A DNA stretch of 64,000 bases, from NCBI RefSeq assembly GCF_000615445.1, contig NZ_BALY01000003.1, forward strand, positions 1 through 64,000, in the 5' to 3' direction. Under the pieces are notes generated by a model. That model searched no databases. It was not told the origin of the DNA and saw nothing but the letters and a program-made list of their open reading frames with translations. The position numbers and the translations under genes are program-made. The stretch's first letter is position 1; each line of letters starts with the position of its first letter. This stretch comes from Lactobacillus hamsteri DSM 5661 = JCM 6256. GTDB lineage: Bacteria; Bacillota; Bacilli; Lactobacillales; Lactobacillaceae. Shown here piece by piece: positions 7,206 through 11,743 of this stretch.

Positions 7206-9140
7206 TTATTCATCTTTCTTAAACATTTTTCGCAATTCATTTTGACTCATTCGAACTAAAACTAGCCGTCCGTCAGCATCATGATACGGATCAGCAGTTT
7301 GTCTTAAATTATTTAAAATCTCTATACATTCAGCTGCAGAAATTTTGATGCGCCCACTAATTTCTTTCTTAGCTTGACCAGCTGCAATTCGTGCAAATAG
7401 ATTAGTATTTTTGCTATGATCCAAATTTAAATAGCTATCTAAAATCCTGCGTAATGATTCTTCAATATCACCGTTTATCCATGTAGGATATGACCGCACA
7501 ATAAAACTATCTTGACCAAAATCTTCTAAATATATGCCAATATTTTTAATTTCATCAAGCTTATTTTTAATTTGCAAAAAATCCAAATTTCCAAATTCAA
7601 GAACAATTGGCGTAAGCAAGCCTTGTTGAACAATTTTTTTCGCATTCATTGCTTTGCGAATTTTTTCAAAAGCCAGTCGTCTTCTTGCTGCAACCTGATC
7701 TACTAAGAAAAGATCACCATCATTTTCTGCAATAATGTAGGCCGACATTTGCCCAACGTACTTTAAAGCTGGCAAATTATTGGCTAAAGTTTCATCCCCG
7801 GAAGAAATAACTTCTGAACTAGATTTTTCCGTATTAAATGGTGTTAATTGAGTCTGTTTTTCTACATTTTCTTGCCAAGTTGGCGTAATAACATATTTAT
7901 CATTTTCTTGCGGTTTATTTAAATCAATATATTTATGAACAGACTTTTTAATAGGTTCATGTTTTTGTTCACCGATCTCTTTGCTTTTTTTAGTTGCAGT
8001 TAGTGCAGTTACGTTATCTTCTTCATGAACTTCCGGAACTTCGTCTTTTTCTCTTTTAGTATTAACAACATCTCGATTCAAATTGAACTTTAATTGATCA
8101 ACCAAACTATCTTTGCGATTTGTTGTTAAATTTTCAAAAGCACTTGTTTGTTCAACATTATCAAGCAAAGCATCACTAATTGCACTCGTAATCAAGCGAC
8201 TTAATTCTTTTTCTTTAGACAGCCGAACTTCTTGCTTAGTTGGGTGAACATTTACATCAACAAGCAAGGGATCAACATGAATTGCTACAATCGCAATTGG
8301 ATAATGACGCGCTGTAAGCTTAGAACCATAACCATCCATAATTGCTGTTGCTAATTTAAAGTTGCGAATATACCGACCATTTAACAAAATCGATATATAA
8401 TTTCGCGTTGATCTAGTCAATTCTGGTTTGGACAAAAAACCACTAACCTTAAAATCACTATCTTCTTTTTCAAAAGACATCATTTTTTCAGCAATATGAC
8501 GACCATAAACATTAGCGACTGTCTGTTGCAACTTGCCATTGCCAGGCGTTCTTAACAAAACCTTTCCTGTATTTGATAAAGTAATTGCAATTTGTGGATA
8601 ACCTAAAGCAATTCGATTAACGATATCCACAATTTTCATCATTTCTGTACGCGGACTGCGCAAATACTTTAATCGAGCCGGCGTGTTAAAGAATAAGTCT
8701 TTAACTGTAATCTGCGTGCCCTTACGGGCTGCTGCATCTTCTTGTCCTTTTTTACTACCTCCGCTAAAGTCAGCTCTTGTTCCAATCTTACCTTCAACGC
8801 TTGTCAAAATTTCTACATGAGCTACCGCTGAAATGGATGCTAAAGCTTCTCCACGAAATCCTAAAGTCGAAACATTGAACAAATCACGTTCATTGTTAAT
8901 TTTGCTAGTCGCATGACGCGTAAAAGCTAAATCGACTTGATCACGCTCGATTCCAGAGCCGTTATCTTGAACAACAATCTGCTTTAATCCTGCATCAACA
9001 ACATCAATTCGAATTCTAGTCGCACCTGCATCAATTGAATTTTCAACTAATTCTTTTACTACACTTGCTGGACGTTCAATAACTTCCCCAGCTGCAATTT
9101 GATTAGTTAAATTTTCAGATAGTTCATGAATTTTTGCCAT
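7206..9140 (-). CDS. mutL: DNA mismatch repair protein MutL with degenerate endonuclease motifs
   Basis: The 644-residue protein has an intact GHKL ATPase: [11 protein letters not shown] (31-41), DNGSGI (59-64), GFRGEAL (94-100). A variable linker covers about 330-450, then the dimerisation domain. In MutH-less bacteria the C-terminus normally carries DQHA-x2-E-x4-E, an ACR motif and CPHGRP. Here the first reads DQVAARRR (481-488), the second AAG (586-588), and the third DADGRL (621-626). The metal-binding His, Glu and Cys positions are therefore gone, as seen directly. Loss of nicking activity is an inference. The frame is intact. It starts 2 bases after mutS ends. Confidence 0.93.
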
Positions 9141-9142
9141 GA

Positions 9143-11743
9143 TTACTTATCGTCATCCTTTAAATCATCTTGCCAGTTGGCAACTAATTGCATAACTTGA
9201 AGCGGAGTTTTATCAGCTAGATATAAATTAGAAATTTGATCCAAAATTTCTTTATCTGCATCGGACATTTCTGCTTTCGGTTCCGCCTTGTCTTCGGTTG
9301 GTTCATTCGGAACTTTAGCAAATAAATCAAGTTGTTCAGTTGCCGGTCCAAGCTCGCTAGCGCCTTGCGCTTCAAGACGCTTCAATAATTTAGTTGCCTC
9401 ACGTAAAACTTTATTTGGCAAACCTGCAAGTTGGGCAACGTGAATACCATAACTTTGATCAGCTGGTCCCGCTAAAATCTTATGCAAGAAAATCAATTTG
9501 CCATTTTCTTCCGTAGCCCCAACATGGATATTCTTTAAATGGTTCAAAGTTTTATCCATATCGGTTAATTCATGATAGTGAGTCGCAAATAAAGTTTTGG
9601 CTCCTACTTTATCATGCAAGTATTTTACAATTGCTCCTGCAAGAGCCATTCCGTCATATGTTGCCGTACCACGGCCAATTTCATCGAATAAAACCAAACT
9701 ACGTTTAGTCGCATACTGCAAAGCTTCATTAGCTTCACTCATTTCAACCATAAACGTACTTTGACCAGAAATAAGGTCATCAGCAGCTCCAATTCTCGTG
9801 AAAATTTGGTCAAATACTGGCAATTCAGCACTATCCGCAGGAACAAAACAGCCTACTTGAGCCATAATAGCAATTAAAGCCATTTGGCGCATATAAGTAC
9901 TTTTACCTGACATGTTAGGTCCAGTAATTAAGTAAACATCAGTATCTTCACCCATCTCAACATTATTTGGAATATAAGATCCTGCTGTCATTACTTTTTC
10001 CACAACTGGATGGCGTCCGTCAATTACATTAATGTCTTGATTATCTGTGTGAAAGACTGGACGACAATAATTATTTTGTTCAGCTACTGTCGCAAAACCT
10101 GTATAAACATCGAGTTCAGCTAATTGATTGCCAAGTTTTTGCAAGGCAGGAATATACTTTTTAGTTTCTTCACGAAGTTTGACAAAAATATCGTATTCTA
10201 AATCAGTAGAACGAGTTTGAGCCTCCATAATCAAGTTTTCATGCTCTTTAAGTTCAGGAGTAATGTAACGCTCTGAATTGGTTAAAGTCTGCTTGCGCGT
10301 ATAGCGATCAAGCGGAACCTTCTTTTTATTTCCGTTAGAAACTTGAATATAGTAACCGAAGACTTTATTGTAACCAACCTTTAAATTATCGATTCCAGTT
10401 TTTTGACGTTCTTCGGCTTCCATTTGAGCAAGCCATTGCTTACCATTATCCATGGCATCACGATATCGATCAAGCTGAGCGTCTACGCCTTCACGAATTA
10501 AGCCACCTTCAGTAGTCAAAACTGGCGGATCTTTAACAATCGTTGTTGAAATCAATTCCGCAACTCCTTGAAGCGGATCAATTTTAGCAGCAAAATCTTT
10601 TAAAACATCACTGTCAGATTGTTCTAAAGCATCCAAAATAACCGGAACAGCGTGAAGTGAACGTGAAAGTTGCAATAATTCACGGGCATTAACATTTCCA
10701 AACGCAATTCGTCCGGTTAAACGCTCCAAGTCATAAACACCTTTCAAAGCATCAACAACATTTTCACGCGTAAAGTAACCATCAAGAAGTGCTTGCACCA
10801 TCTCTTGACGATGGTTAATTTGATCAACTGACAATAATGGTCTTGATAGCCATTGCTTTAAAAGTCGTGCTCCCATTGCTGTATGAGTTTTATCAATTAC
10901 CCAAAATAGCGAACCCATCTTTTTGCCAGTTTTAGCAGACGAGATCAATTCCAAATTATTTTGCACAACATGGGACATCTGCAAATATTGGTTAACTTCG
11001 TAGCTTTTAGCAATCTGCAAGTGAGCTAAGCTACGCTTTTGAGTTGTTAACAAATAGCTGACTAATTGTTCTGCAGCTAATTTTTCAGCCTGATTATGCA
11101 AATTCTGTTCAACGTAAGAAATTTCCGCATGCTCACCTTCGAGAGGAGTTGGCGTTGAAACAGTAATATTTGCCTTATGCAAAAAATCCTTATTATCCTC
11201 TGTCAAAGTCCCATCATAAACAACTTCGCGAGTTCGAAGAGACAATAACTCATTAGAAACTGACGCAAAATCCTTTAAGTGCGTCGCATAAACTTCCCCA
11301 GTCGACAAGTCGCTGTAAGCTAGACCGAAACCTGATTTAGTGGTAACTACTGAAGTAAGATAATTAGATTCCTTAGCTTCATTTGGTCCTTCGGCCATCA
11401 TAGTACCTGGCGTTACTAGTTGAATAATGCCTCGCTTAACCATTCCTTTAGCTTTTTTAGGATCTTCAAGTTGTTCACAAAGGGCAACTTTATATCCTTT
11501 TTCAACTAAAGTATTTACATAATTATCAACTGCCATGTGTGGCACGCCTGCCATAGGAATTGGATTTTTAGTTTTATTAGAACGGTGCGTTAAAGTCAAT
11601 TCGAGGATTTGGGCTCCCTTAACCGCATCCTCTTCAAAAAGTTCATAAAAGTCTCCGACACGATAAAAAAGAAAGGCGTCAGGATATTGCTTTTTAATTT
11701 CATAATATTGCTCCATCATTGGAGTAGTGCTTGTATTAGCCAA
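9143..11743 (-). CDS. mutS: DNA mismatch recognition ATPase MutS
   Basis: The 866-residue protein shows the MutS1 order: mismatch-binding domain (DAFLFYRVGDFYELFEEDA), connector, core/clamp, then the ABC-type ATPase with ITGPNMSGKSTYMRQ (Walker A) and LVLFDEIGRGTATYDG (Walker B), and a helix-turn-helix tail. It recognises mispairs and recruits MutL. All catalytic elements look normal, unlike the adjacent MutL. It is first in the mutS-mutL-ruvA-ruvB-yajC run. Confidence 0.97.
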   Translation of the reverse strand: MANTSTTPMMEQYYEIKKQYPDAFLFYRVGDFYELFEEDAVKGAQILELTLTHRSNKTKNPIPMAGVPHMAVDNYVNTLVEKGYKVALCEQLEDPKKAKGMVKRGIIQLVTPGTMMAEGPNEAKESNYLTSVVTTKSGFGLAYSDLSTGEVYATHLKDFASVSNELLSLRTREVVYDGTLTEDNKDFLHKANITVSTPTPLEGEHAEISYVEQNLHNQAEKLAAEQLVSYLLTTQKRSLAHLQIAKSYEVNQYLQMSHVVQNNLELISSAKTGKKMGSLFWVIDKTHTAMGARLLKQWLSRPLLSVDQINHRQEMVQALLDGYFTRENVVDALKGVYDLERLTGRIAFGNVNARELLQLSRSLHAVPVILDALEQSDSDVLKDFAAKIDPLQGVAELISTTIVKDPPVLTTEGGLIREGVDAQLDRYRDAMDNGKQWLAQMEAEERQKTGIDNLKVGYNKVFGYYIQVSNGNKKKVPLDRYTRKQTLTNSERYITPELKEHENLIMEAQTRSTDLEYDIFVKLREETKKYIPALQKLGNQLAELDVYTGFATVAEQNNYCRPVFHTDNQDINVIDGRHPVVEKVMTAGSYIPNNVEMGEDTDVYLITGPNMSGKSTYMRQMALIAIMAQVGCFVPADSAELPVFDQIFTRIGAADDLISGQSTFMVEMSEANEALQYATKRSLVLFDEIGRGTATYDGMALAGAIVKYLHDKVGAKTLFATHYHELTDMDKTLNHLKNIHVGATEENGKLIFLHKILAGPADQSYGIHVAQLAGLPNKVLREATKLLKRLEAQGASELGPATEQLDLFAKVPNEPTEDKAEPKAEMSDADKEILDQISNLYLADKTPLQVMQLVANWQDDLKDDDK

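Follow-up and report, generated by a model that had tools for sequence, protein, structure and literature searches.

The locus examined here raises the question of how a bacterium might start mismatch repair (MMR) with a MutL that has lost its endonuclease site. It lies in a window of 64,000 nucleotides from Lactobacillus hamsteri DSM 5661 = JCM 6256 (contig NZ_BALY01000003.1, positions 1 to 64,000). All features described below are on the minus strand. The mutL gene (7206..9140) is an open frame of 644 residues directly downstream of mutS (9143..11743). The mutS gene is intact, with MutS domains I-V and a TIGR01070 mutS1 score of 1084 bits for a cut-off of 642. The Pfam profiles DNA_mis_repair (125.5 bits), HATPase and MutL_C (96.3 bits) all exceed their cut-offs, which places the product in the MutL family. 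Among the NCBIfam models, TIGR00585 is above its cut-off and NF000950 below (682.8 vs 756). The NCBIfam name 'DNA mismatch repair endonuclease MutL' misfits the lost active site described below and is probably functionally wrong here.

The N-terminal GHKL ATPase domain (residues 1-325, 8166..9140) is intact and is matched by phmmer to the N-terminal domain (NTD) of Bacillus subtilis MutL (9n2k, E 1.8e-106). Several stretches of this domain, which we take to be the ATPase motifs, are invariant across 23 aligned Lactobacillus MutLs. Two motifs of the C-terminal domain (CTD) are also kept. Motif III, the β-clamp motif QxLLxP, reads QGLLTP (residues 506-511, 7608..7625), and its Q, L, L and P are invariant in 69/69 distinct sequences of the genus. 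Motif VI (FKK, residues 640-642, 7215..7223) is kept as FK(K/R), with F in 69/69, K in 68/69 and K or R at the third position in 67/69.

The endonuclease site has fared differently. The nearest solved structure by sequence is the B. subtilis MutL CTD (phmmer E 2.3e-25 to 3gab), whose zinc ligands are reported to be H464, E468, C573, C604 and H606 (PMC2965676). At these columns the window MutL carries V483 for H464, R487 for E468, a gap next to A590 for C573, D621 for C604 and D623 for H606. Motif II is degenerate: the 12 residues 481-492 (7665..7700), which stand for DQHAx2Ex4E, lack the H464 histidine and are basic at E468. Motif V is degenerate as well (residues 617-626, 7263..7292, standing for NPFxCPHGRP). 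For motif IV (ACR/SCK, residues 586-591, 7368..7385), the 138-row MAFFT alignment places the Cys column at a one-residue gap beside A590, in 69/69 sequences. The initial annotation had called the endonuclease motifs lost and the ATPase and MutS intact, and both statements hold. Its interval 7263-7700 does correspond to residues 481-626, with motif II starting at 481, AAG at 586-588 and DADGRL at 621-626. The aligned Cys column lies off the AAG triplet, and there is no Cys either way.

The loss of the metal site extends across the entire genus Lactobacillus and is not a chance event. Our sample comprised 75 genomes, of which 71 have a MutL match, including 60/60 high-quality genomes (completeness of at least 90%, contamination of at most 5%). 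The four genomes without a match (G031, G057, G066, G070), all of them incomplete or contaminated, also lack MutL_C. Each of the 71 matching genomes has one MutL, which in G035 and G047 appears as two pieces of one open frame. Full copies from 70 genomes gave 69 distinct sequences, and all five ligand columns are changed in 69/69: the ligand residues His (H464), Glu (E468), Cys (C573, C604) and His (H606) each occur in 0/69. The partial MutL of G040 (L178), in which a stop lies inside the match, is also changed. The E468 column holds R in 66 sequences, K in 2 and H in 1, the C604 column is D in 69/69, the H464 column is mostly hydrophobic and the H606 column varies between sequences. As for the catalytic Arg of CPHGRP, the window MutL has it as R625, yet just 14/69 sequences of the genus have Arg there. 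Because E468 has turned into R or K while C604 has turned into D, these letters suggest that a salt bridge, R487-D621 in the window MutL, may have replaced the metal.

The wider family places the change on the tree. Among 251 Lactobacillaceae genomes of 38 genera, 246 have a MutL match, and the five without one all belong to genus g29 (G102, G135, G163, G187, G210; each at least 98% complete). G102, the g29 genome checked, also has no MutL_C match. Outside Lactobacillus, 234 genomes have a match; at least one copy was read from every matching genus, covering 53 genomes of 34 genera plus single genomes of g8 and g27. The five ligands are kept in 53/53 distinct MutLs from the 34 genera, as well as in 10/10 other Bacilli that had been chosen for a missing DQHAxxER pattern. 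The g8 MutL (L125, G081) keeps motif II; its frame stops early in the CTD with the remainder matching as a separate piece, and it was excluded from the count of ligand-keeping sequences. Genus g27, represented by one genome (L103), lacks the metal site but with letters different from those of Lactobacillus, namely A and S at the E468 and C604 columns. A tree was built from the NTD only (98 rows, made up of L103, 35 of the 69 sequences from Lactobacillus, 53 from other Lactobacillaceae and 9 from other Bacilli; rows L125, L143, L146, L147, L171 and L178 omitted). The 36 rows that have lost the site fall on one side of one branch with SH-aLRT 99 in this tree, which was made by a quick method with no bootstrap and has a long L103 branch. 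The initial annotation had proposed aligning MutL across Lactobacillaceae and mapping the loss on the tree; the mapping requires one change. The loss is a single ancestral event common to Lactobacillus and its sister genus g27, and its genus-wide, ancient nature goes beyond what that annotation had described.

Similar losses were sought at higher ranks. In the class Bacilli, a DNA pattern for DQHAxxER is present in 285/299 genomes. The 14 misses are 3 Lactobacillus and 11 others; of these 11, 10 carry DQHAAHEK in their MutL_C and keep the remaining ligands, and 1 has no MutL_C match. In the phylum Bacillota, a slightly wider pattern, which allows R, K or a few polar residues after DQHAxxE, is present in 255/299 genomes. 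Apart from the window itself, 43 of the 44 misses are other genomes, 39 with MutL_C and 4 without. Motif II is readable in 38 of these 39 copies and keeps His and Glu in 38/38; motif V is likewise readable in 38 and keeps Cys and His in 38/38. The Bacillota genomes G384, G726, G748, G883 and G890 have no MutL_C match. No further lineage with the same loss was thus found among the pattern misses followed up in the two samples. These samples overlap and pattern-positive genomes were taken as normal, some of their matches perhaps lying outside mutL, which makes this a survey and not a proof of uniqueness. A literature search, mostly without subscription journals, found no report of MutL endonuclease loss in Lactobacillus. 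A survey of MutL motifs is said to have been made by Banasik and Sachadyn in 2014.

The altered protein is still under selection. One-ratio codon models, applied to trees several of which are so long that synonymous sites may be saturated, gave dN/dS values of 0.016-0.038 for the NTD and 0.038-0.088 for the CTD in four Lactobacillus groups. For comparison, four groups whose site is normal gave 0.013-0.038 and 0.010-0.057, respectively. The Lactobacillus CTD is somewhat relaxed, its constraint being about twofold weaker than that of the NTD, but it is clearly selected and not decaying. Neither a broken frame nor a dN/dS near 1, as expected of a pseudogene, was seen, in agreement with the initial reading of an open frame without a break. 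At NTD identities of 0.60-0.70, CTD identity is 0.40-0.43 in Lactobacillus vs 0.62-0.66 elsewhere, and linker identity is 0.32-0.38 vs 0.17-0.21. Linker positions with at least 80% identity number 31/126 in Lactobacillus vs 3/120 in other genera, as counted in separate alignments of 28 and 31 selected sequences.

Two blocks of the linker stand out as conserved within the genus. The first (residues 347-363, 8052..8102) appears in the conservation track as 17 residues with invariant columns. The second (residues 404-435, 7836..7931) is a candidate docking module, as judged from linker conservation and AlphaFold2 confidence: block means of pLDDT are 65-78 over residues 400-429, where the model has a helix, and the chain beyond is disordered. 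Some genera outside Lactobacillus carry weaker versions of parts of this linker (DQLxFNLN, xPF). At its end the conserved stretch reads QxxLxPF (residues 429-435, 7836-7856), which, in our estimation, loosely resembles a clamp-binding peptide and might provide a second clamp contact.

The full-length AlphaFold2 model has a mean pLDDT of 57. Confidence in its NTD is poor and therefore only the CTD was used, where 10-residue blocks mostly reach 85-94. The CTD model (residues 453-641) superimposes on the zinc-bound B. subtilis CTD (3kdk_A) with a Z score of 20.1 and an rmsd of 1.9 over 184 aligned residues. The clamp-motif subdomain matches the B. subtilis clamp-MutL structure 6e8d with a Z score of 12.4 and an rmsd of 1.1 across 77 residues. 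The Z score of the CTD against 1x9z, which we take to be the Escherichia coli MutL CTD, is 13.7.

Whether such a protein supports repair can be judged from the mutation accumulation experiments of Hale, Yin and Behringer in L. crispatus and L. acidophilus (PMC12691593). L. crispatus ATCC 33820, with an intact mutS, shows 9.01e-10 substitutions per site per generation, a Ts/Tv of 1.50 and small indels at 4.57e-10. L. acidophilus ATCC 4356, with a frameshifted mutS, shows 1.97e-8, 30.02 and 6.82e-9, respectively, and its indels are short (mean insertion 1.0 nt, mean deletion 1.5 nt). The corresponding rates for Lc. lactis are 8.36e-10 for substitutions and 1.48e-10 for indels. The authors, whose main text does not mention MutL by name, state that the L. 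acidophilus type strain is devoid of functional MMR. Strains of this species have also lost adaB, alkD and mfd. By our own arithmetic on these figures, L. acidophilus exceeds L. crispatus 22-fold in substitutions and 15-fold in indels, or about 35-fold in transitions and about 1.8-fold in transversions if Ts/Tv is taken as a ratio of counts. The L. crispatus substitution rate is similar to that of Lc. lactis and its indel rate is three times higher. In B. subtilis, the proportion of transitions is likewise reported to rise about tenfold upon MMR loss (PMC11890065).

The genomes in our sample can be set beside these strains. The L. crispatus MutL (L010, G010) has a degenerate 12-residue motif II and a motif V that reads DADGRI, and the metal site is absent. 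In the same genome MutS matches in one frame, and MutH, NucS and the endonuclease pattern have no match. In the L. acidophilus genome G003 (L215, G003:C1:1419500-1439499), mutS lies in two frames split near codon 81 and mutL is open, in line with the mutS frameshift reported for the type strain. L. crispatus, which bears a MutL without the site, looks MMR-proficient in this comparison, which is made across species and not between isogenic strains. No mutL mutant in the genus Lactobacillus was found in the literature searched.

A substitute nuclease was looked for in the genomes. MutH (PF02976) was found in 0/75 Lactobacillus genomes and, among 14 controls, in E. coli alone. NucS (PF01939) was found in 0/58 Lactobacillus genomes at least 95% complete and in 7/14 controls. 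The canonical MutL endonuclease pattern (DQHAxxE plus a basic or polar residue) was found anywhere in the genome in 0/75. MutH, NucS and a second canonical MutL nuclease were accordingly rejected as substitutes, within a search that reaches paralogues close enough for these models. A neighbour of mutSL was rejected too. Among frames of 70 or more residues in the first 27 kb of the window, none was present in all ten Lactobacillus loci and g27 yet absent from the nine others, in a local test on loci of about 20 kb each.

We consider it probable that the Lactobacillus protein works in MMR although its endonuclease is dead, and that the strand break comes from outside MutL. Several points count against this: no replacement nuclease turned up in these searches, the mutation rates compared are those of different species, the L. 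crispatus indel rate exceeds that of Lc. lactis and the CTD is less constrained than the NTD. MutS would bind the mismatch, and MutL would then load in an ATP-driven manner and be tethered to the sliding clamp through the intact QxLLxP. MutL would act as a matchmaker as in E. coli, minus MutH, and the strand break that starts excision would be supplied by something other than MutL. The initial annotation had left a choice between impaired repair and the use of another nuclease. The first part finds no support in the dN/dS values and the L. crispatus data; another nuclease, or pre-existing nicks, is the option that remains. What we infer is that MutL takes part in L. crispatus repair, that the same holds for Lactobacillus as a whole, and where the break arises.

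The break could be made by a nuclease that MutL recruits, perhaps via the conserved linker. We hold this source, tentatively, to be likelier than the second choice, ends left by replication. In that second case there would be no dedicated incision: breaks behind the fork (Okazaki ends, the leading-strand 3′ end, ribonucleotide nicks) would direct repair, and MutL would only license the helicase and exonuclease near the clamp. This variant of the same explanation is a possibility we take seriously without giving it even odds. It agrees with the failure to find MutH, NucS or a second canonical MutL motif in the genomes searched, with the invariant clamp motif and with the lack of a genus-specific gene beside mutSL in the loci compared. 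However, E. coli mutH mutants are strong mutators, and pre-existing breaks leave the linker conservation without a reason. Moreover, the R500T change in Thermus thermophilus MutL, which affects one catalytic Arg of CPHGRP, abolishes MMR in vivo (PMC10366529). From that result, replication nicks alone are not enough in T. thermophilus, and an uncompensated loss of the site would be expected to kill repair, which also counts against a working MutL without the site. It is because of the T. thermophilus result and the conserved linker that we lean slightly towards a recruited nuclease.

If MMR were impaired throughout the genus, the main reason for retaining MutS and MutL would be to prevent recombination with divergent DNA. 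The loss of all five metal ligands fits this alternative, and so does the scarcity of homopolymers, as stronger selection against slippage might cause it. Coding homopolymers of at least 8 nucleotides, compared with the numbers expected from codon shuffles, are observed 1 time vs 14.6 expected in the window (1-64000), 0 vs 11.3 in 29 loci (L003-L031) and 1 vs 7.2 in 9 Lactobacillus loci. Summed over four Lactobacillus groups the figures are 5 vs 54, the Lactobacillus sets overlapping. Outside the genus the counts vary: two sets give 8 vs 11.8 and 3 vs 7.0, other Bacilli give 2 vs 4.2, and single genera range from 1 vs 3.6 to 3 vs 2.8 apart from one with 0 vs 4.4. The depletion is stronger in Lactobacillus than in most other genera tested. 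Yet the MutL-less g29 shows no clear depletion (13 observed vs 18 expected), so that the sign is unspecific. The depletion does not sort with MMR loss, and it is therefore kept as an observation alone.

The mutation spectrum was examined as the transition bias at fourfold sites around mutL or ruvB in close species pairs (HKY kappa). Among less diverged pairs, kappa was 5.3 and 6.0 in g29 (divergence 0.06 and 0.39). Four Lactobacillus pairs (divergence 0.07-0.23) gave 3.0-6.7, and five pairs from genera whose MutL is normal (divergence 0.13-0.31) gave 3.2-5.1; more diverged pairs were near saturation. Since the MutL-less control g29 is not distinct, the test has no power and nothing was drawn from it. 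The published mutation data count against genus-wide impairment: a Ts/Tv of 1.50 and an Lc. lactis-like rate in L. crispatus, and a Ts/Tv of 30 with short indels where L. acidophilus has lost mutS (PMC12691593). We regard it as improbable.

A rebuilt active site is very unlikely in our judgement. Here D617 and D621 together with D481 would hold a metal and MutL would still nick DNA. These aspartates are indeed conserved: beside the invariant D of the C604 column, D is found at 617 in 67/69 and at 481 in 68/69. Moreover, the 2011 study by Correa on Pseudomonas aeruginosa MutL reportedly found some motif residues dispensable for nicking in vitro; this too counts against an endonuclease-dead MutL. 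However, the E468 column is basic (R/K in 68/69, H in 1), the H464 column is mostly hydrophobic, the H606 column varies and most sequences of the genus have lost the catalytic Arg. Finally, decay or a sequencing artefact of one genome can be dismissed, as the same state occurs in 70/70 Lactobacillus genomes that have a complete MutL and in the partial L178, in an open frame with a dN/dS far below 1.

The endonuclease-dead, working MutL that we favour bears on a working rule, namely that MutH-less bacteria rely on the MutL endonuclease. The well-studied genus Lactobacillus breaks this rule, and on published data one of its species seems still to repair mismatches. The origin of the nick and of the strand signal in methylation-independent repair is described as unresolved in a review (PMC8744996), and Lactobacillus offers a natural setting in which to ask about it. 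Mutator behaviour in Lactobacillus should also be read in the light of a MutL without the site. We tentatively propose a third type of bacterial MutS/MutL repair, with neither MutH nor a MutL endonuclease; as a whole this scenario is possible rather than probable. The nuclease would have been dropped in the ancestor of Lactobacillus and its sister genus, and Lactobacillus would then have gained the R487-D621 salt bridge in place of the metal, as well as a linker docking site for the nuclease that cuts.

Comparison with known systems sets this MutL apart from each of them. It shares its domain order, CTD fold, motif III and motif VI with the MutH-less, endonuclease-bearing MutL of B. subtilis (3gab, 3kdk, 6e8d); unlike that protein, it has all five zinc ligands changed, and its linker is more conserved than in the family members that keep the site. 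Like E. coli MutL, it lacks the endonuclease motif and keeps the clamp motif and the CTD fold, and it would share the ATP-driven matchmaker role. Unlike in E. coli, no MutH is found in the 75 Lactobacillus genomes, and the protein derives from an endonuclease MutL by loss inside Lactobacillaceae; its C-terminus still aligns with that of B. subtilis (DPYxDxxG, MFK). EndoMS/NucS repair in Actinobacteria and Archaea likewise does without MutH and a MutL endonuclease, but Lactobacillus has MutS and MutL and, in the 58 genomes searched, no NucS. In eukaryotes, MLH1 and human PMS1/yeast Mlh2 are MutL subunits without the metal motif that act alongside a nuclease paralogue, whereas Lactobacillus has a single MutL per genome. 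A MutL without endonuclease is already known in company with MutH, as in E. coli, or as a eukaryotic partner subunit.
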